From: Caldithrix abyssi
Lineage (GTDB): Bacteria; Calditrichota; Calditrichia; Calditrichales; Calditrichaceae
DNA: 64,000 nt
Reading direction: 5' to 3'
Assembly (NCBI GenBank): GCA_011369465.1
Contig: DRQG01000109.1
Location: forward strand, 1-64,000
Shown here: one piece after another, positions 468 to 56,248 of the stretch
Layout of the letters: every line of letters starts with the position of its first letter
Numbering within the stretch: position 1 is the stretch's first letter
Made by a program: the position numbers and the translations under genes
Notes under the pieces: model-generated
Database searches by the model: none
What the model saw: the letters and a program-made list of their open reading frames with translations, nothing else
Told to the model about the DNA's origin: nothing

Positions 468-2801
468 TTGCTCTCCGATAGGATAAAAAATATAGGGCAA
501 TCGCCCACGATGAAAATAGCGGCAAAAGCCATTGCCATGAAAGCAGAAGGTATCGATGTGGTCGATTTTAGTGTGGGCGAACCGGATTTTCCCACGCCCC
601 GGTTCATCAAAGACGCTGGCAAAAAGGCCATTGATGATAACCTGACCCGCTACACCATTAACCGCGGCATCGTTCCCTTGCGTAAGGCGATAGCGCAAAA
701 GTTAAAGGAAGATAACGGCCTTGACTATGATGTTTCCGAAATTATCGTATCCAATGGCGCCAAGCAAAGTCTCTATAATGTAGTGCAGAGCGTGGTGGGG
801 AAGGATGACGAAGTCATTATCCCGGCGCCGTATTGGGTATCCTACCCGGAGATGGTGCGTTTGGCGCAGGGTAAACCGGTTATTGTGCAAACGCATGAGG
901 AAAACGGTTTTAAACTAACTGCCGACCAACTGCGTAAAGCCATTTCCGCCAATACCAGAGCGATCATTATCTGCAATCCATCCAATCCGACCGGCGCCGC
1001 TTATACCCGCCCGGAACTGGAAGCTCTGGCCGGAATACTGGAAGAGGAAGATATAGTCGTTATCTCCGATGAGATTTATGAAAAACTGGTATTCGATGAT
1101 TTTAAATTTACCAGTATCGCCGCCCTGAGTTCCAAAATAAAGCAAAAGACCGTGGTTATTAACGGATTTTCCAAAGCCTATGCCATGACCGGCTGGCGTA
1201 TCGGCTACGCTGCCGGCCCGAAAGACATCATTTCGGGCGCTGATAAAATACAAAGCCACAGTACCTCCAATGCTTCCTCTGTGGCGCAATACGCTGCCCT
1301 TACGGCGCTTAACGGTCCTCAATACGAAATTAACCGCATGGTGGCCGAGTTTCAGCGTCGGCGCAATTACGTGGTGCAGCGTCTGAACGGTATGCCCGGC
1401 GTCAGTTGTAATACGCCGGAAGGCGCCTTTTATGTTTTCCCTAATGTGGAATCCTTTTTCGGCAAGGAGGCAGAGGGCAATTACATCCGAAATTCTTATG
1501 GGCTGGCCTACTATCTTCTGCGCGAAGCCAAGGTGGCCCTGGTTCCCGGTGCGGCTTTTGGCAAGGAGGGGTACATTCGCATTTCCTATGCCACCTCTAT
1601 GGAAAATCTGGAAAAAGGGTTAAATCGAATCGAAAAGGCTCTGGCCAAACTTAAAACCCCCTCACGGGCCAAATTTGTACAACTGAATAATTACAAGACC
1701 AGGGTTACGATAAAAGCACCCATAGAAGCGGATTTAACGCCGGACAAACGCGATGCAATCGTGGCGGAAGCCGAAGCACAGCTTAAATTTGACCAGTATT
1801 TTGAATGGAACGCCAATATCAACGGGGTTATCGTACAACTGCGCACAAATAACGGTCATTTGTATGATTTCTGGGTGGAAAACTGGTATCCGGCCCAACT
1901 GGAAGCCGATCTGGAACCACACGCCGTTATTTATGCCGTGGACGGCGCGGTGGGGCGTGAAACGCATGCCTTTTATCATCCCGAAACCCACACGGGTATT
2001 TTATTCAACTGCGATTATTATGCCGCGCTGCGCAGCCTGGCTCTGGGAATGGTGAGCGACATCGGCGCTTCCGTGTTCAACCTGCACTCTGTGCGCGGGA
2101 TGTCTGGTGATCGCGACGGACACGGTTTTATGCTCATCGGTCCGAAAGGCACGCATAAAAGCGAATTATTTTTGCATCTGATCCAGGAAGACAATATCGC
2201 CCTGCATTCCAACGATTTGGTTTTTGTTCGTTACGGCGGCGGGTATGCGGCGGCCGATATGCCGGAGCGCAAACTCTATTTCCCGACCATTTCGGCGGAG
2301 ATATTTCCTCAATTAAGCGCACTCTTCGATCGCAGTAAATGCGAAAATGTGTTAACCGATCGGGATAACTGCCAATATGAAGATTGTCCGCTTCGCGGCG
2401 ATTGTCAAATGGAAAAAGGTATGCCGTATTGCTATTTCGGTTCGCCCAAAGCGGCTGCCATGCTGGACCCTTACTGGATAGGCGGAATGAACAAGCATGT
2501 AAAAAGAACGGACTTACGCACGGTATTTTTGCTTGTCAACGAACCGGCTGGCGCCATTTTGCAGGAGACAGACAAGGCCTCCGCCTTAACAATGATCGAG
2601 TCCGGTACGAGCAGCGGGCATGCCGAACAGAGCGCGCCCTTTTACAATCCGCATTTGTTATTGACGGATAGCGAAAGCTATGAACGCCAAAAAAGAGGGT
2701 TTGAGCAGCTCCTGCATCAGGCAAACGTGTACAAACTGAATACCGGCGCCGGTTCACCCGCGGAGGTAGTGAACGCGGTGGTGGAGAAAATTACAAAATA
2801 G
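468..2801 (+). CDS. Class I aminotransferase fused to a PEPCK/HPr-kinase-like P-loop domain
   Basis: Residues 1-395 are a complete class I PLP aminotransferase of the aspartate aminotransferase type. Visible residues are NPSNPTG at 170-176, DEIY at 201-204 (Tyr204), the PLP lysine K236 in SKAYAMTGWR, and the substrate-carboxylate Arg371. After a short linker the reading frame continues without a stop for about 380 residues. This second half contains a P-loop-like GPKGTHKS (558-565), a downstream HSND (580-583), and a five-cysteine cluster (C625, C635, C640, C646, C655). Its layout (a stretch resembling the PEPCK substrate region, then the P-loop) recalls the PEPCK/HPr kinase fold. The start is TTG at 468, preceded by a GAGG Shine-Dalgarno at about 458. 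The next gene is a PEPCK homologue, so a link between aspartate, oxaloacetate and PEP is plausible. The activity of the C-terminal half is unknown. Confidence 0.85.
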   Translation: MLSDRIKNIGQSPTMKIAAKAIAMKAEGIDVVDFSVGEPDFPTPRFIKDAGKKAIDDNLTRYTINRGIVPLRKAIAQKLKEDNGLDYDVSEIIVSNGAKQSLYNVVQSVVGKDDEVIIPAPYWVSYPEMVRLAQGKPVIVQTHEENGFKLTADQLRKAISANTRAIIICNPSNPTGAAYTRPELEALAGILEEEDIVVISDEIYEKLVFDDFKFTSIAALSSKIKQKTVVINGFSKAYAMTGWRIGYAAGPKDIISGADKIQSHSTSNASSVAQYAALTALNGPQYEINRMVAEFQRRRNYVVQRLNGMPGVSCNTPEGAFYVFPNVESFFGKEAEGNYIRNSYGLAYYLLREAKVALVPGAAFGKEGYIRISYATSMENLEKGLNRIEKALAKLKTPSRAKFVQLNNYKTRVTIKAPIEADLTPDKRDAIVAEAEAQLKFDQYFEWNANINGVIVQLRTNNGHLYDFWVENWYPAQLEADLEPHAVIYAVDGAVGRETHAFYHPETHTGILFNCDYYAALRSLALGMVSDIGASVFNLHSVRGMSGDRDGHGFMLIGPKGTHKSELFLHLIQEDNIALHSNDLVFVRYGGGYAAADMPERKLYFPTISAEIFPQLSALFDRSKCENVLTDRDNCQYEDCPLRGDCQMEKGMPYCYFGSPKAAAMLDPYWIGGMNKHVKRTDLRTVFLLVNEPAGAILQETDKASALTMIESGTSSGHAEQSAPFYNPHLLLTDSESYERQKRGFEQLLHQANVYKLNTGAGSPAEVVNAVVEKITK

Positions 2802-2952: not shown

Positions 2953-4809
2953 ATGACACACGATATTTATGACGAATCATATTACAAACGTTTTTATAAC
3001 GAGCTCAGCGGCTTATTAAGCGGTAAAAACATTCAAACCGTCAGTATGGGCTATCTGGAAAAAGAAGCCCGTAAATACGCCCGTAGAACCGAATACGGTT
3101 CCTACGTTTGGTCTTCGAAAATATCCAACCGGTTGGCGCCCAAAACGGTTTATCTGGGCAGTGAACGGGTACGGCTGCCCCGGCCGACCGAAGAGCAGAA
3201 ACAGATTATCCGCAACGCACCGCAGCAATTGGACAAGGTGCTGCACTGGATAAAAAAACTGCCTTTCGTGCACATCCGCCGTCAGATGGGGCATAATGGG
3301 GAATATAACCCCATCTGCAATTTGTATGTAAGTGTCAACGATCCGAAAAATATCCGCCTGGCCTATATGTGGGCTTCCACCATGTTCGATCCTTCATCGC
3401 GTCCCGGTCCGGAATTCACTATGATACATATCCCGGAAGAACATCTGATGCGGGCGCAGGTTCTGGCTTTACCCGAATACAATATGAATATCTGCATGGG
3501 TTCCGATTATCTGGGCGAGGATAAAAAAGGTTTTCTGCGTCAGGCCATGTGGCGGGCTGACGAGCAGGGTATGTTGGGGCTGCACGCCGGCACAAAAATC
3601 GTAACCGTGCGCGACCCGCGCGAAGGAAAACTGAAAAAATACGGCGTTTTTCTGTTCGGAATGACCGCCACCGGCAAATCCACCTGGTCCTGCCATCAAT
3701 TGGGATTAGACCCGGACAGGGGAGAGTTCACTCAGGCGGCGCAGGATGATATCGTTTTTCTTACCAAAGACGGATCGGCCTACGGTTCGGAAAACAATTT
3801 CTATGTTAAAACCGATGTGACCGAAGAACATCAGGAAGCCATGTACAACGCTCTGGTGGATAAATCGGCTCTGATAGAAAATGTGATGGTTGATTACAAA
3901 GGAAATGTGGATTTTTTGGACGAATCTCTTTGCGGCAATGGCCGGGCGGTTATTTTTCGCAAAAAATTAGCGGTTAAGCAGGGCAGAAAATTGGTGGGTA
4001 TCAGCGCGCCGACCATCAACCTGCCCTCGCTGGAGGAAATGGACGGGCTGATTTTCGCCTTTATCACCCGGCGCAACACGATTATGCCCTTTGCTCAGGA
4101 ACTGACCCCGGAACAGGGCGTGCTGGCCTATTTATGGGGCGAATCGACCCACAGTTACGCTTCCAACCCGGCGTTGGCCGGCGATTCCGTGCGTATTGTG
4201 GGTACGGATCCGTTCATTGTCGGTTCGCGCGGGCGTAAAGTCAATCGATTTTATGATATTGTAATGCAGTTGGTCAGCAAGTATCCCGGTAAGGTGCGTT
4301 TTATGATGTACAATACCGGCGGTATGGGCGAAATCATCGAAACCTACGAAGAAAACGGACAAAAAAAGAAGAAACTGGTGCGAAAAACCGAGCGCGTGCC
4401 CCTGCCTTTGATGGCTGCCATTCAGCGCGGCGACCTGCGCGGCACCAATCAGTACGAGCCGGGTCTGCTGGGAACAAAATCCATTGTAGCTGTGGAAGGC
4501 AAACCAATCCCCGAGTATGATCCTACCCGGTTTTACTCGCAGGAACAAATCGATTTTTACATCCGCGATCTGGTGGAAGGCCGGCGCAAATTTACCGATA
4601 TCATTGCCGGGGAAGGACTGAAACCGGAAATCGTACGCACCGCGGAAAAAGCTTTCAGCATCGAACCCGCAGCTAAGCCGTCAGTTGCCGCATCTGCCGC
4701 CCCTTCTTTTCCCGGAACCAGCACCGTCGAAAGCGACAAAGTGGTTATCGTTACCACGGCTCAGCCGGTGTCCCGCCCGCGCCGCCCCGGAACATGGAGG
4801 TGGAGATAA
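2953..4809 (+). CDS. Divergent ATP-type phosphoenolpyruvate carboxykinase homologue
   Basis: The protein is about 618 residues, longer than the usual 530-540 of ATP-PEPCK. Positions matching the catalytic core are visible: GEDKKG (K191/K192, metal-ligand lysine region), His211 in LHAGTK, the P-loop GMTATGKST at 236-244, an Asp pair at 265-266, and Arg331. The usual GLSGTGKTT P-loop and the DDEH motif are altered (GMTATGKST and DDIV). The C-terminus carries about 40 low-complexity Ala/Ser/Pro residues. I chose ATG 2953 because the longer frame from 2842 runs through an inverted repeat. The gene follows the aminotransferase fusion in the same direction. The known family reaction is oxaloacetate + ATP to PEP + CO2; whether this divergent member performs it is inference. 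Confidence 0.75.
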   Translation: MTHDIYDESYYKRFYNELSGLLSGKNIQTVSMGYLEKEARKYARRTEYGSYVWSSKISNRLAPKTVYLGSERVRLPRPTEEQKQIIRNAPQQLDKVLHWIKKLPFVHIRRQMGHNGEYNPICNLYVSVNDPKNIRLAYMWASTMFDPSSRPGPEFTMIHIPEEHLMRAQVLALPEYNMNICMGSDYLGEDKKGFLRQAMWRADEQGMLGLHAGTKIVTVRDPREGKLKKYGVFLFGMTATGKSTWSCHQLGLDPDRGEFTQAAQDDIVFLTKDGSAYGSENNFYVKTDVTEEHQEAMYNALVDKSALIENVMVDYKGNVDFLDESLCGNGRAVIFRKKLAVKQGRKLVGISAPTINLPSLEEMDGLIFAFITRRNTIMPFAQELTPEQGVLAYLWGESTHSYASNPALAGDSVRIVGTDPFIVGSRGRKVNRFYDIVMQLVSKYPGKVRFMMYNTGGMGEIIETYEENGQKKKKLVRKTERVPLPLMAAIQRGDLRGTNQYEPGLLGTKSIVAVEGKPIPEYDPTRFYSQEQIDFYIRDLVEGRRKFTDIIAGEGLKPEIVRTAEKAFSIEPAAKPSVAASAAPSFPGTSTVESDKVVIVTTAQPVSRPRRPGTWRWR

Positions 4810-4880: not shown

Positions 4881-5108
4881 ATGAAAAAAGCAATTAATAT
4901 ACGACTTAACGAATCGCTTTTAAAAGAACTGGACAATTATGCCAAAGAGTTGGAACGAAGCAGAACGTATATCATCGAAAAAGCAATCAGCGCCTATTTT
5001 GATGTATTGGATGAGATCATAGCCGACAAAAGAATCGATGAGGTTAAAAGCGGTAAAGCGAAAGTCTATACGCTGGAAGAGGTGGCTAAACAACTTGGCC
5101 TGGAATAA
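4881..5108 (+). CDS. Ribbon-helix-helix antitoxin (CopG-like)
   Basis: This is a 75-residue protein. Its first 45 residues (INIRLNESLLKELDNYA followed by RSRTYIIEKAI) have the beta-strand/helix/helix pattern of ribbon-helix-helix DNA-binding antitoxins. The C-terminal tail (YTLEEVAKQLGLE) is of the kind that binds a RelE-type toxin. A GAGGT Shine-Dalgarno precedes the ATG. The stop codon overlaps the toxin start as TAATG, indicating translational coupling. Expected role: neutralise the downstream toxin and repress the operon through the 4852-4869 palindrome. Confidence 0.85.
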   Translation: MKKAINIRLNESLLKELDNYAKELERSRTYIIEKAISAYFDVLDEIIADKRIDEVKSGKAKVYTLEEVAKQLGLE

Positions 5109-5359
5109 TGTACAGAATCATCATCCCGAAAATTGTTGTTAAAGAATTATCGGATATCAACCGCAAAGATCAACGATTGATATACAAAAAGCTAAAAGAT
5201 TTGGAAGCCGGTAATTTCGCAAATGATAAACCATTGAAGGGGCGGTATAAGGGAAAATTTAGAAAAAGAGCAGGTGATTACAGGATTATTTATTTAAAAG
5301 AAAACAATATTTTGCTTATAACCATCATCCGCATTGCTCATAGAAAAGAAGTTTATTAA
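5108..5359 (+). CDS. RelE/ParE-family toxin
   Basis: This 83-residue basic protein has the RelE fold signature: an N-terminal strand-helix, LKGRYKGKFRKRAGDYRIIYL in the middle (the conserved basic strand with Arg in GDYRIIY), and a closing IIRIAHRKEVY strand with His and Tyr. RelE-type toxins cleave mRNA in the ribosomal A site, whereas ParE relatives poison gyrase. The RxGDYRIIY and AHRKEVY pattern favours RelE, but the target cannot be decided here. The start overlaps the antitoxin stop by one base, as in many type II pairs. Confidence 0.85.
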   Translation: MYRIIIPKIVVKELSDINRKDQRLIYKKLKDLEAGNFANDKPLKGRYKGKFRKRAGDYRIIYLKENNILLITIIRIAHRKEVY

Positions 5360-5688: not shown

Positions 5689-6681
5689 ATGAAAGCAACG
5701 GCCAAGGCGCATTCCAATATCGCTCTGATTAAATATTGGGGGAAAAGAGACGAACGGCTTAACCTACCGGCGGTGGGGTCCATATCGCTTACCCTGGATG
5801 CGCTGCATACCGTTACCTCCGTTCATTTCGATTCCGCTTTAAACGACGACGAACTGATCCTCAATGATGAAAAAGCCGGCGACAAGGAAACGGCACGCAT
5901 CAGCGCTTTTCTGGATTTGATTCGCCAAATGGCCGGTATGACTCATAAAGCCAGAATTAACAGCCAAAACAATTTTCCCACCGCCGCCGGGCTGGCTTCC
6001 TCGGCTTCGGCTTTCGCGGCGCTGGCACTGGCGGCCGCGAAGGCTGCCGGATTGTCCCTCTCAAGGAAAGAGTTGAGTGTTTTGGCCCGTCAGGGTTCCG
6101 GTTCGGCCGCCCGTTCCGTGTATGGGGGATTGGTGGAAATGAAGCGGGGAAGCGCAGCGGATGGCCGCGACGCCTATGCCGTACGGCTTGCTGAACCCGA
6201 TTACTGGGATTTGCGGCTGTTGATTGCGGTAACCTCCGAAGCAAAAAAACCGGTGGGTTCCACAGCAGGCATGCGTCTCAGCGAACGAACCTCGCCCTAT
6301 TATCATGCCTGGGTGGACAACTCCGAAAACGATTTGCAGGATATGCGGCAGGCTGTACAGCAAAAAGATTTTGAAAAAGTGGGAGAACTGTGCGAATTCA
6401 GCGCGCTTAAGATGCACGCCCTGGCGCTAAGTTCCAATCCCGGCCTGATTTATTGGAACGGGGCCACGGTAGAAGGAATGCACGTTGTCCGCTCTTTGAG
6501 GCGGACCGGACTGCCGGTCTGGTTCACCATCGACGCTGGACCGCAGCTTAAGGCGCTTTGTCTGCCCGAAGCAGCGGCAAAAGTGACGGAAGCCCTGCAG
6601 AATGTTCCCGGCGTTCGGCAGGTTATCGAATGCCGAACGGGCCCGGATGCGCTTGTACTTAACGAAGAGGCACCTTTATGA
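5689..6681 (+). CDS. mvaD: Diphosphomevalonate decarboxylase
   Basis: This 330-residue GHMP-superfamily enzyme catalyses the ATP-dependent decarboxylation of mevalonate 5-diphosphate to isopentenyl diphosphate. The N-terminal NIALIKYWGKRD motif is diagnostic. FPTAAGLASSASAFAALA is the phosphate-binding loop, SGSAARSVYGG follows, and FTIDAGPQLKAL carries the catalytic aspartate. Length matches the family. It is the first gene of the mevalonate cluster and overlaps the next gene by 4 nt (ATGA). The Shine-Dalgarno before ATG 5689 is weak, but no better start exists because the family motif begins at residue 9. Confidence 0.95.
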   Translation: MKATAKAHSNIALIKYWGKRDERLNLPAVGSISLTLDALHTVTSVHFDSALNDDELILNDEKAGDKETARISAFLDLIRQMAGMTHKARINSQNNFPTAAGLASSASAFAALALAAAKAAGLSLSRKELSVLARQGSGSAARSVYGGLVEMKRGSAADGRDAYAVRLAEPDYWDLRLLIAVTSEAKKPVGSTAGMRLSERTSPYYHAWVDNSENDLQDMRQAVQQKDFEKVGELCEFSALKMHALALSSNPGLIYWNGATVEGMHVVRSLRRTGLPVWFTIDAGPQLKALCLPEAAAKVTEALQNVPGVRQVIECRTGPDALVLNEEAPL

Positions 6682-7745
6682 TTACCGCTCTGGCTCCCGG
6701 GAAAATGATTCTGCTCGGAGAATACGCCGTTCTGGAAGGATCGGCGGCGCTTGTCTGCGCGGTGGATCGGTACGCCCGGGTTCAGTCGGCATACAACCGT
6801 ACAGGCGAGCATTTTATACGGGCAGCTTCTCTGGGGATTGAGGGCGAACCGTTTGTTATTAACGCCAACGGAAAAGTGCGCTTTAATCCCACGGCTGATT
6901 CGCTGCTGATTAAACGATTGGGGTTTTTCGCCGCGCTGTATGAAAGTTTGTATCCCCGTTTGGTTAAAGCAGGCAAAGGAATTAAATTGGCATTGGACAC
7001 AACCGATTTTTATTCGCAGCAACTGCATACAAAATTCGGTTTCGGTTCCAGCGCCGCCTTAACGGTGGCTATGACGGCGGCGATTGACGCTTTGGCGGGA
7101 GAGAAATTATTTAGTAACAAGGAAATTCTGCATCTTGCCTTGCAGGCGCACCATCAGGCGCAGGGGAAAATGGGCAGCGGCATCGATGTGGCGGCCAGCG
7201 TTTACGGCGGCGTTCTCATCTATCAGAAGGATGCGGAACAGGAATTTCCCGCACGGGAACCGCAAAATGTACCTTTGCGCGACGATATACCAATGATTGT
7301 TGTCTGGTCGGGCAAATCGGCTTCCACGCGGTCGATGGTCGGCGCCGTAAACGGGCTGAAAGCGCAAAATCCGTCGCTGTATCGTTCTATCATGGATGAT
7401 CTGACAACACTTTCCGTAGATGGCATTGCTGCCTACCGGCAGGGAAGCGGCGACGAATTTTTGCGCCTTGTAAACGACTATCATCGGACAATGGACAGAC
7501 TGGGTAAAGAAGCGGGAGCGGATATCATTTCCGCCGAACATGCCGCCCTGTTCGAACTTTGTACGGCGGAAGGCGCGGCTTATAAACCATCCGGTGCCGG
7601 CGGCGGGGATATAGGCATCGTCTTTTGCCGGGAAACTCAACAGAGAGACTTCCTGAAACAAAAAATCACCCAGCAAAATTTCAACATTGTACCGGTGATG
7701 GTTGCTTCGCAGGGAATAAAACGAACGGAAGAAGACAGTAGATAA
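6678..7745 (+). CDS. GHMP kinase, probably phosphomevalonate kinase
   Basis: This 355-residue GHMP kinase has the start motif APGKMILLGEYAVLEG, the ATP loop FGFGSSAALTVA, and KMGSGIDVAASVYGG in the middle. Substrate assignment rests on context. The cluster already has a decarboxylase and a mevalonate kinase domain, so the remaining kinase step (mevalonate 5-phosphate to 5-diphosphate) is the best fit. GEYAVLEG rather than GEHAVVYG also suits phosphomevalonate kinases. It is translationally coupled to the decarboxylase through a 4-nt overlap. Confidence 0.85.
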   Translation: MITALAPGKMILLGEYAVLEGSAALVCAVDRYARVQSAYNRTGEHFIRAASLGIEGEPFVINANGKVRFNPTADSLLIKRLGFFAALYESLYPRLVKAGKGIKLALDTTDFYSQQLHTKFGFGSSAALTVAMTAAIDALAGEKLFSNKEILHLALQAHHQAQGKMGSGIDVAASVYGGVLIYQKDAEQEFPAREPQNVPLRDDIPMIVVWSGKSASTRSMVGAVNGLKAQNPSLYRSIMDDLTTLSVDGIAAYRQGSGDEFLRLVNDYHRTMDRLGKEAGADIISAEHAALFELCTAEGAAYKPSGAGGGDIGIVFCRETQQRDFLKQKITQQNFNIVPVMVASQGIKRTEEDSR

Positions 7746-7810
7746 TGGAAATAGTTAGTATTCATTAAACGTGTAAGACTTAATAAATCGAAATAAAAAG
7801 GACTTCTGTT

Positions 7811-10066
7811 ATGGCAAGTTCTCGCATACCCGGATTTTATAAATATTCGGTTCAGGAACGGCTGAAAATACTACACGATAAACATCATTTAAATGAAGAA
7901 GACTACGCGCTGTTGAGAAACGGTAAAGGGATATTGCGTCCCACAGATTCCGACAAAATGATTGAAAACGTCATCGGCGTCTTTGGTTTGCCCCTGGGTT
8001 TGGGGCTTAATTTTTTAATCAATGGCAAAGATTATCTGGTTCCGATGGCCGTGGAAGAACCGTCCATTCTGGCGGCGGTCAGTTCCGCGGCAAAGATTGT
8101 TCGTAAAACCGGCGGCTTTCGCAGTAAAGCGTTCGATTCAGTGCTCATCGGCCAGATACAGGTGGTCGATTTTCGCAACGCTTCCAAAGCCAAAAACGCC
8201 GTTCTACAAAACCGGGAGGAAATAAAGAACCTGGCCAACAGCCTGCATCCCAATATGATCGCCCGCGGCGGCGGCGTACGCGATGTGGAAGTGCGTATTT
8301 TGTCCGGCGCTTCCCGTGAGCGCGGCGATATGCTTATAGTGCATCTGCTGGTAGACACCAGAGACGCCATGGGCGCTAATCTGGTAAACAGTATGTGCGA
8401 AGGTGTGGCCTCCCTGATAGAAAAAATTACCGGCGGTAAGGTTTTCCTGCGCATCCTGTCCAACCTGGCCGACCGTTCCATCGTGAAATCCGATTGCACA
8501 ATACCTGTACAGTTATTGGAAGGAAAAGGATACTCCGGAGAAGAAGTAAGGGACGGTATCATTTTAGCCTATGAATTTGCCGCAGCCGATCCTTATCGCG
8601 CCGCCACGCATAACAAAGGCATTATGAACGGGATTGACCCGGTGGTTATTGCTACCGGCAACGACTGGCGGGCCATTGAAGCGGCCGCACATGCTTATGC
8701 AGCAAGAGGCGGGCGCTACACATCGCTGACTACATGGGGTAAAAATGAAAACGGCGACCTGGTGGGATCAATTGAAATACCTATTCGGGTGGGAACCGTG
8801 GGCGGGCCGTTGGAAAGCAATCCCATGGTGCCGGTAATGCACCGTTTGATGGGAATTAAATCGGCGGCGGAGCTGGCTGAAATATTAGGCGCAGTGGGAC
8901 TGGCGCAGAATATTTCCGCTTTGCGCGCTTTGGCAACGGAAGGCATACAGCAAGGACACATGAGCCTGCATGCCCGAAGCGTGGCCATCGCCGCAGGCGC
9001 CGGCCCGGAAATCTTTGAAACCGTGGTGGAAAAATTAGTGGACTCCAATGAAATAAAGGTCTGGAAAGCCAAGCGAATTATAGAGGAAATAAAAAGCCGG
9101 GAAGAGGCGCCGCAAGCCGATTTATATCTGCAGCCAACGGAAGAAAAACTTCCCACCGGGCACGGAAAGATCATTTTACTCGGCGAACACGCTGTGGTTT
9201 ATGGCAGTCATGCCATTGCCGCCCCCATCCCTTTGGCCATGCAGGCCAAAGTGAGCGAAACAGACAATGAGGGCATTCATCTGATCATCCCGCGTTGGGG
9301 GGTGGAAGAACAAATCCGTCACGGCGCAGAGCATAAATATTCCATATTCAAATCATTGGAATTGATTCTCGATACATTGGATCTGCAAAAACAAAATATG
9401 AAGATAGAGGTGTTTCCTTATGTACCCCGCGCCATGGGGCTAGGGGGATCCGCCTCTTTGGCGGTAGCCATTATCCGCGCTTTATCGGAACAGTACAAAT
9501 TGGGTCTGAGCGATACGGATGTATCCCGGCTGGCTTTTGAATCCGAAAAAATCGTGCATGGCACTCCATCGGGAATTGACAACACCATGGCCACGTACGG
9601 ACGTTTCCTTTTGTATAAAAAAGGGGAGCCGCCCTTTATGGAAACCATCCGTGTGGAAAAGCCCATTCGTATTGTCATCGGTTTAACCTGGGTGGAAAGT
9701 TTAACCGCCAAAATGGTCAGTCGGGTGCGGCAGGGCTGGGAACGGAATAAAAAAGTGTACAATCATATCTTCAAAGAAATTGATTTACTGGTAAAAGATG
9801 CGGTGAAGGCGATCGAAAAATATGATTTACAGCAGCTGGGCGAACTGATGAATATCAATCAGGGATTGTTAAACGCCTTGCAGGTTTCCGGTCGGGAAAT
9901 CGAAGAACTGGTGGATATTGCCCGTTCCAAAGGCGCCCTCGGAGCCAAGTTAACCGGCGGCGGCGGAGGCGGCGCTATCATCGCCCTGTGTCCGGACAAT
10001 GCCGAAAAAGTGGCTATGGCCATCAAAAATGCCGGCTACCAGGCATTTATTACGGATATACAATGA
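7811..10066 (+). CDS. HMG-CoA reductase (class II) - mevalonate kinase fusion
   Basis: This 751-residue bifunctional protein carries two consecutive steps of the mevalonate pathway. Residues 1-430 are a class II HMG-CoA reductase. The catalytic set is present: Glu82/83 in VEEPS, Lys269 in THNKGIMNGID, Asp285 in TGNDWRA, and His383 in GHMSLHAR, with numbering close to the Pseudomonas mevalonii enzyme. Residues 448-751 are a mevalonate kinase: GKIILLGEHAVVYG (Lys453), GLGGSASLAVA (543-553), and GTPSGIDN with Asp590. The linker of about 20 residues is charged. An AAGGA Shine-Dalgarno precedes the ATG. I know of other HMGR fusions (thiolase-HMGR in Enterococcus MvaE), but this pairing is uncommon. 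Confidence 0.95.
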   Translation: MASSRIPGFYKYSVQERLKILHDKHHLNEEDYALLRNGKGILRPTDSDKMIENVIGVFGLPLGLGLNFLINGKDYLVPMAVEEPSILAAVSSAAKIVRKTGGFRSKAFDSVLIGQIQVVDFRNASKAKNAVLQNREEIKNLANSLHPNMIARGGGVRDVEVRILSGASRERGDMLIVHLLVDTRDAMGANLVNSMCEGVASLIEKITGGKVFLRILSNLADRSIVKSDCTIPVQLLEGKGYSGEEVRDGIILAYEFAAADPYRAATHNKGIMNGIDPVVIATGNDWRAIEAAAHAYAARGGRYTSLTTWGKNENGDLVGSIEIPIRVGTVGGPLESNPMVPVMHRLMGIKSAAELAEILGAVGLAQNISALRALATEGIQQGHMSLHARSVAIAAGAGPEIFETVVEKLVDSNEIKVWKAKRIIEEIKSREEAPQADLYLQPTEEKLPTGHGKIILLGEHAVVYGSHAIAAPIPLAMQAKVSETDNEGIHLIIPRWGVEEQIRHGAEHKYSIFKSLELILDTLDLQKQNMKIEVFPYVPRAMGLGGSASLAVAIIRALSEQYKLGLSDTDVSRLAFESEKIVHGTPSGIDNTMATYGRFLLYKKGEPPFMETIRVEKPIRIVIGLTWVESLTAKMVSRVRQGWERNKKVYNHIFKEIDLLVKDAVKAIEKYDLQQLGELMNINQGLLNALQVSGREIEELVDIARSKGALGAKLTGGGGGGAIIALCPDNAEKVAMAIKNAGYQAFITDIQ

Positions 10067-56107: not shown

Positions 56108-56248
56108 GAAGGAGTGATGGAGTTTTGGAGTAGTGGAATGATGAATTTGTGGATTGATGAATTTGCGCAATAAATAATTGCATCAATAATCTTTTGCTTA
56201 ATAGAGCATTACATCACTCCAACACTCCATTACTCTATTACTCCATCA
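56108..56248. repeat. Inverted GGAGT word repeat
   Basis: GGAGTGATGGAGTTTTGGAG and further TGGA words at 56108-56142 face the complementary ATCACTCCAACACTCCATTA words at 56211-56246. The family is the same as at 2829-2913. It lies between the DUF72 and kdsB genes; the right part borders the kdsB stop. Confidence 0.7.

Follow-up and report, generated by a model that had tools for sequence, protein, structure and literature searches.

Phosphoenolpyruvate carboxykinase (PEPCK) acts where the TCA cycle meets gluconeogenesis, and the forms that we know of consist of a single type of chain. A minor type of the enzyme has been described in Kuenenia stuttgartiensis and Aeropyrum pernix, which carry a QDD motif and lack the RX5TR ATP pocket (Aich and Delbaere, PMC2684135). 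In the available parts of that account, the Kuenenia enzyme is likened to both the ATP and the GTP types, its nucleotide region is rich in Lys and Arg (printed as GKKVTK-RKVKRVEI), and no pseudo-PEPCK domain, aminotransferase fusion, flotillin neighbor or C-terminal tail is mentioned for either organism. A PEPCK-like protein, NDUEG2, has also been described as a subunit of a membrane complex, complex I of Euglena, where the available part of the paper judges it unlikely to be functional (PMC10884005). In C. abyssi, Cabys_0267 has been named for the conversion of oxaloacetate to PEP, and the words “carboxykinase” and “flotillin” do not occur in the available main text of that paper (PMC5317091). 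Among the matches listed for the open-licence literature, we found no pseudo-PEPCK paired with PEPCK, no aminotransferase-PEPCK fusion and no flotillin-PEPCK cluster. The catalytic type treated below is known in outline; its paired and fused arrangement seems undescribed among those matches.

The DNA analyzed here (the window) is a stretch of 64,000 nucleotides from Caldithrix abyssi, which forms the start of contig C109 in a 4.3-Mb genome (G000); the named close relatives are mostly Calditrichota. A fusion gene (468-2801) encodes an aminotransferase (residues 1-396) followed by a domain of 381 residues, and its downstream neighbor encodes a divergent PEPCK, here named PCKL (Table 1). The PCKL reading frame ends with the stop codon at 4809; the mechanical open reading frame begins at TTG 2842, and the ATG at 2953 was taken as the start because relatives from the same kind of module start near the residue encoded there. 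Between the two genes lies a 27-nt inverted repeat (2846-2913, 89% complementary), perhaps a dispersed repeat element, with a related copy of one arm at 56212-56233. Directly downstream of PCKL is a small ribbon-helix-helix/ParE-like toxin-antitoxin pair with overlapping genes (4881-5359), and a mevalonate-pathway cluster occupies 5689-10066, in which HMG-CoA reductase and mevalonate kinase are fused in one protein of 751 aa.

We propose that PCKL and the fusion may form a two-component PEPCK, in which PCKL would be catalytic and a pseudo-PEPCK domain would dock an aminotransferase onto it (aspartate-oxaloacetate-PEP); a flotillin would probably tether the assembly to the membrane. We regard the case for this proposal as evenly balanced.

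Table 1 Features of the PCKL locus (positions in the window)
Feature	Position	Strand	Remark
Aspartate-aminotransferase-like domain of the fusion	468..1655	+	Nearest solved chain 1j32, E 2.1e-115
Pseudo-PEPCK domain of the fusion	1656..2801	+	Predicted PEPCK fold; metal-site Lys and His replaced
Modified P-loop GPKGTHKS of the pseudo-PEPCK domain	2139..2162	+	
Cys-rich insert of the pseudo-PEPCK domain	2340..2432	+	5 Cys, C-x9-C-x4-C-x5-C-x8-C
PCKL, divergent PEP carboxykinase	2953..4809	+	618 aa; catalytic residues kept
Arg60, likely counterpart of canonical Arg65	3130..3132	+	R in 21/21 family sequences
Lys191-Lys192, PEPCK-specific motif	3523..3528	+	
His211, metal-ligand position	3583..3585	+	
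P-loop GMTATGKST	3658..3684	+	
QDDIV, kinase-2/metal XDD motif	3742..3756	+	QDD form printed in Table 2 of PMC2684135 (available part)
Arg331, substrate-arginine position	3943..3945	+	
C-terminal tail RPRRPGTWRWR	4774..4806	+	After a variable linker

Active site, class and phylogeny of PCKL

PCKL scored 81.9 bits against PF01293 (cut-off 26.5), far beyond chance, over profile positions 77-358 of 465, and its N-terminal part matched canonical PEPCK poorly, as a preliminary description of the locus had stated. The catalytic residues of PEPCK, which we take to be Tyr207, Lys212/213, His232, Lys254, Asp268/269, Lys288 and Arg333 in E. coli numbering, are invariant throughout the PCKL family (21 of 21 sequences) and identical in the canonical pckA of the same genome. 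Over a set of 11 active-site positions, ten, Arg60 among them, are invariant in the 21 sequences (window protein included), the remaining one being S or T; nine of the 11 are identical in the genome's own pckA when the two proteins are aligned. The equivalence of Arg60 and canonical Arg65 is plausible rather than exact: the two lie one column apart in the alignment of the anammox homolog with canonical PEPCK, the only alignment that covers Arg65, and Arg60 is unaligned between PCKL and the genome's own pckA.

The preliminary description had also listed GMTATGKST, DDIV, K191/K192, H211 and R331 in this protein, and all of these letters are present. It called the motifs altered; a reading of them as disabled is not supported. 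All 21 family sequences, PCKL included, retain Walker-A Lys242 and the two aspartates of the XDD motif, which fits the minor PEPCK type given in Table 2 of PMC2684135 (available part). A broken P-loop was thus rejected, the Lys being present in 21/21 and followed by S or T, and so was the view of DDIV as a lost metal motif.

Profile comparisons place PCKL apart from the canonical enzyme. Against TIGR00224, the equivalog model of canonical pckA, it scored 28.2 bits, below the cut-off of 590.05, and against NF006821 it scored 297.9, below 369; the latter cut-off was passed by the corresponding part of an Asgard protein (L031, 425.3) and by an anammox relative (L029, 447.4). A normal pckA does exist elsewhere in the genome (G000:C98:27088-28482, 748 bits). 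PCKL shares with it the superfamily and the catalytic residues, but the two are only 26% identical and differ in the surroundings of the P-loop, in the kinase-2 context and in the adenine pocket: of the RX5TR pocket, PCKL keeps the first Arg (R481) and the TR is absent in the alignment with its own pckA. With its QDD kinase-2 motif, its missing RX5TR and its Lys/Arg-rich nucleotide region, PCKL resembles the Kuenenia and Aeropyrum enzymes, a likeness drawn from the published description (available parts of PMC2684135). The double likeness of the Kuenenia enzyme to ATP and GTP types in that source has a parallel in an Asgard member of the PCKL family (G127), which reaches the cut-off of the GTP-PEPCK model PF00821 over a short P-loop stretch.

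In the phylogenetic tree, PCKL and its relatives, including the anammox L029, were separated on a long branch from 18 canonical sequences of the phylum with a support of 100/100. These 18 came from 30 scanned loci (L001, L097-L125), an open reading frame with exact GLSGTGKTT and DDEHG being required. Judged from its residues and its position in the tree, PCKL is a deep branch of PEPCK with kept catalytic residues and not a broken enzyme, and its odd motifs mark the known minor (Kuenenia/Aeropyrum) type rather than damage.

The long branch, the partial coverage by PF01293 and the fact that a canonical pckA was also detected in seven of the ten Calditrichota genomes that bear PCKL would all suit a protein that now serves a different substrate or reaction, as a kinase or carboxykinase acting on some other acid, in which case the pair would not handle oxaloacetate and PEP. 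We consider such a shift unlikely, as the substrate- and metal-binding PEPCK positions are invariant and a PCKL relative is the only PEPCK found in five further genomes. Three of these are Asgard genomes (G040, G043 and G044), each with a single match to NF006821 and none to PF00821; that no further PEPCK was detected in them supports a real PEPCK activity of the family. The other two are G046 and G047. As for the three PCKL-bearing Calditrichota genomes in which canonical pckA was not found (G003, G012 and G021), these are 76-89% complete.

The fusion protein and its probable pseudo-PEPCK domain

The N-terminal domain of the fusion matched PF00155 (aminotransferase I/II) with 265 bits (cut-off 19.7) and fell short of the thresholds of the best-scoring aspartate-transaminase models (465.5 vs 617 and 445.8 vs 550). 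Its nearest solved relatives, of which the closest (1j32) is an aspartate aminotransferase, point to aspartate as the probable substrate.

The 381-residue C-terminal domain has no Pfam match. A predicted model of its structure, built on 11 sequences (mean pLDDT 81.8, pTM 0.82), aligned with ATP-PEPCK along the length of the domain (Z 26.1, 343 residues, rmsd 3.6), and the best Foldseek E value was 1.2e-16. Canonical PEPCK was also matched colinearly in a profile comparison with hhalign (probability 69%; E 4.6e-5, single comparison). The match to the PCKL of the module covered only the P-loop half (probability 53%), and an origin of the domain by duplication of PCKL is unsupported either way. 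The structural matches also included chain 8iuf_E2 (Z 20.3, 276 residues, rmsd 3.6), presumably NDUEG2. Unlike the domain described here, NDUEG2 is a subunit of a eukaryotic respiratory chain, and the available part of PMC10884005 names neither a catalytic PEPCK nor an aminotransferase as its partner.

An identity of this domain with HPr kinase was considered and rejected, given that the sequence matches are weak and the predicted structure is that of PEPCK. The C-terminal domain of HPr kinase/phosphorylase (PF07475, cut-off 33.3) gives weak matches around the P-loop in Asgard copies and in standalone ones, as does TIGR00679; an Asgard copy reached 23 bits, below the curated cut-off, and the domain in the window has no PF07475 match, whereas the fold search gives PEPCK over the full length. 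HprK folds are absent among the fold matches listed, an absence that is not informative.

Key residues were compared in 24 copies of the domain, truncated ones (for example L018, G045, G049 and G126) being left out. The metal-site Lys is replaced by Arg in 10 of 11 aminotransferase-fused and in all seven PEPCK-fused copies, and the metal-site His is replaced by Arg in the same proportions (10/11 and 7/7); the replaced Lys corresponds to 212 or 213, ambiguous by one position. The six standalone relatives all keep the Lys, the His, the Walker-A Lys and the DD. From the predicted fold and this degeneration of the metal site, the domain is most likely a pseudo-PEPCK in its fused forms. The standalone relatives of about 320 aa, with Lys, His, P-loop and DD kept, are possibly small active kinases of the PEPCK fold. 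Four of them belong to the Asgard group (L070 6432-7388, L071 6434-7402, L072 6183-7139 and L073 6420-7394), and those of L070 and L072 lie near a proteasome-like gene, so named from an impression of its sequence.

Two further features bear on the role of the domain. All 11 aminotransferase-fused copies keep the Walker-A Lys while the Lys and His of the metal site are lost, and none of the seven PEPCK-fused copies keeps it. A Cys-rich insert occurs in the 11 aminotransferase-fused and in two of the six standalone copies and is absent from the seven PEPCK-fused ones; the insert region holds four to six Cys in each of the 11 and is a possible metal or Fe-S site. These features could mean that PCKL is active and that the pseudo-PEPCK domain senses a nucleotide, a metabolite or the redox state and regulates PCKL, and the aminotransferase as well, without any channeling. 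The Walker-A Lys would then bind the nucleotide and the insert would report metal or redox, and a precedent by analogy exists in the Euglena complex I subunit, a PEPCK fold without detected activity (PMC10884005, available part). We think this reading improbable, if less so than a change of substrate: the Walker-A Lys is lost in 7/7 PEPCK-fused copies, which argues against nucleotide binding across the family, and several Calditrichota copies have a further change in the P-loop (GPKGTHKS in the fusion studied).

Pairing across genomes, flotillin and the C-terminal tail

The pairing of the two genes was followed across genomes. Among 40 genomes of the Calditrichota phylum, PCKL was found in ten (E < 1e-270); weaker matches in G019, G020 and G031 are canonical pckA and were excluded from this count. 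Nine of these ten also have the pseudo-PEPCK domain, which was found nowhere among the remaining 30. PCKL adjoins the fusion on one contig in seven (G000, G001, G002, G003, G005, G007 and G012); G013 and G021 have them on separate contigs, close to contig ends, and in G004, whose PCKL reaches the end of its contig, no fusion or pseudo-PEPCK domain was found. The flotillin of the module (E < 1e-180) was detected in eight of the ten PCKL-bearing genomes, G004 and G012 being the exceptions. No flotillin reached this level in the other 30, five of which have different flotillins with E values no better than 3.7e-34. The three genes cluster: in six genomes the flotillin gene lies just upstream of the fusion on the same contig, and the single-contig genome G001 carries the whole module. 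In G000 the flotillin lies beyond the window (Band_7 81.7 vs cut-off 23.6, Flot 32.4 vs 27); its match points outward on contig C55 and stops 238 bases short of the contig end, and the fusion begins at base 468 of C109, so that a break in the assembly likely separates the two.

Outside the phylum, Asgard archaea (L027, L030, L031, G125, G127 and G128) and a deltaproteobacterial MAG (L028) carry the domain N-terminal to a catalytic PEPCK within a single polypeptide of some 900 residues; the phylum group of this MAG comprised three genomes, of which one has the domain. In the group of L031, 14 of 227 genomes have it, including standalone copies of about 320 residues (G123, G210, G217 and G218) and one of 382 residues (G219). 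For the archaeal fusion, a model from 14 sequences (pTM 0.63, mean pLDDT 75.3) does not fix the packing of the domains; its PEPCK part aligns with solved PEPCK (Z 31.1, 476 residues, rmsd 3.4). A large, secreted-looking protein is encoded after the fused PEPCK in several Asgard MAGs (L030 7942-12324, L031 7912-11907 and L032 1242-5201). In the Planctomycetota sample the domain occurs in four of 294 genomes: two have the order PCKL-flotillin-fusion, which differs from that in Calditrichota, a third has flotillin-fusion up to the contig end, and the fourth has the domain without an aminotransferase. In the anammox genome G042 no pseudo-PEPCK domain was found and the PEPCK stands alone, and thus not every member of the PCKL family needs a partner.

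The adjacency to the fusion, which the preliminary description had suggested might be conserved, therefore extends over 7/10 PCKL-bearing Calditrichota genomes and into other phyla. Taken together, its picture of a protein distinct from the classical enzyme stands as regards the separate clade, the pckA elsewhere in the genome and the conserved association, and a reading of the motifs as disabled is unsupported. Its idea that the couple may sense oxaloacetate or PEP is speculative, and neither the degenerate PEPCK within the fusion nor the flotillin gene figured in it.

PCKL ends in a short Arg/Trp tail. A variant of RPRRPGxWRWR, preceded by a variable linker, closes all 11 PCKL proteins of the module read outside Planctomycetota; two Planctomycetota PCKLs end in RRPRRP plus six other residues, and the tail is absent from the Asgard, delta and anammox relatives read. 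When the 40 genomes were searched at the DNA level for RPGxWRWR followed by a stop, the pattern matched the PCKL end in 10/10 PCKL genomes, and the reversed control gave 0 matches. A second copy in G003, on another contig, also matches a PCKL end, and one further match lies in G030, a genome without PCKL. A general sorting tag is unsupported by this distribution. The tail is a candidate docking or membrane-binding peptide.

PCKL could also be an ordinary redundant paralog of PEPCK within an inherited operon, with no physical coupling to its neighbors. Its kept catalytic residues and the canonical pckA in the same genome agree with this; yet the pseudo-PEPCK domain and PEPCK share one chain in Asgard archaea, the genes occur in two orders, the metal-site Lys and His are replaced in fused copies and kept in standalone ones, and the Arg/Trp tail is almost confined to PCKL. 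We hold simple redundancy to be very unlikely.

In the two-component PEPCK that we propose, PCKL would be a competent PEP carboxykinase of the Kuenenia/Aeropyrum type and would supply catalysis. Its partner would be the pseudo-PEPCK domain, carried on the same chain in Asgard archaea and joined to an aminotransferase in Calditrichota and a few Planctomycetota. That the domain is joined either to PEPCK or to an enzyme whose likely product is the PEPCK substrate points to docking: bound to PCKL, it would place the aminotransferase beside the carboxykinase, and aspartate could pass through oxaloacetate to PEP, or the reverse, within one assembly. The pseudo-PEPCK would then serve as an adaptor and perhaps as a regulator too, and the co-encoded flotillin would probably act as the scaffold that holds the assembly at the membrane. 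We entertain more tentatively the fuller version, in which a heteromeric PEPCK of a Kuenenia-type subunit and a pseudo-subunit, tandem-fused in Asgard archaea, was rewired to the aminotransferase, and flotillin and tail anchor the resulting metabolon to a membrane microdomain.

If the proposal is true, the conserved pairing of an enzyme with its own degenerate copy would represent a novel means of regulation or channeling at the point where the TCA cycle and gluconeogenesis meet, and a bacterial flotillin would be tied to a concrete metabolic task. With the whole module present in the single-contig genome G001, the proposal is directly testable.
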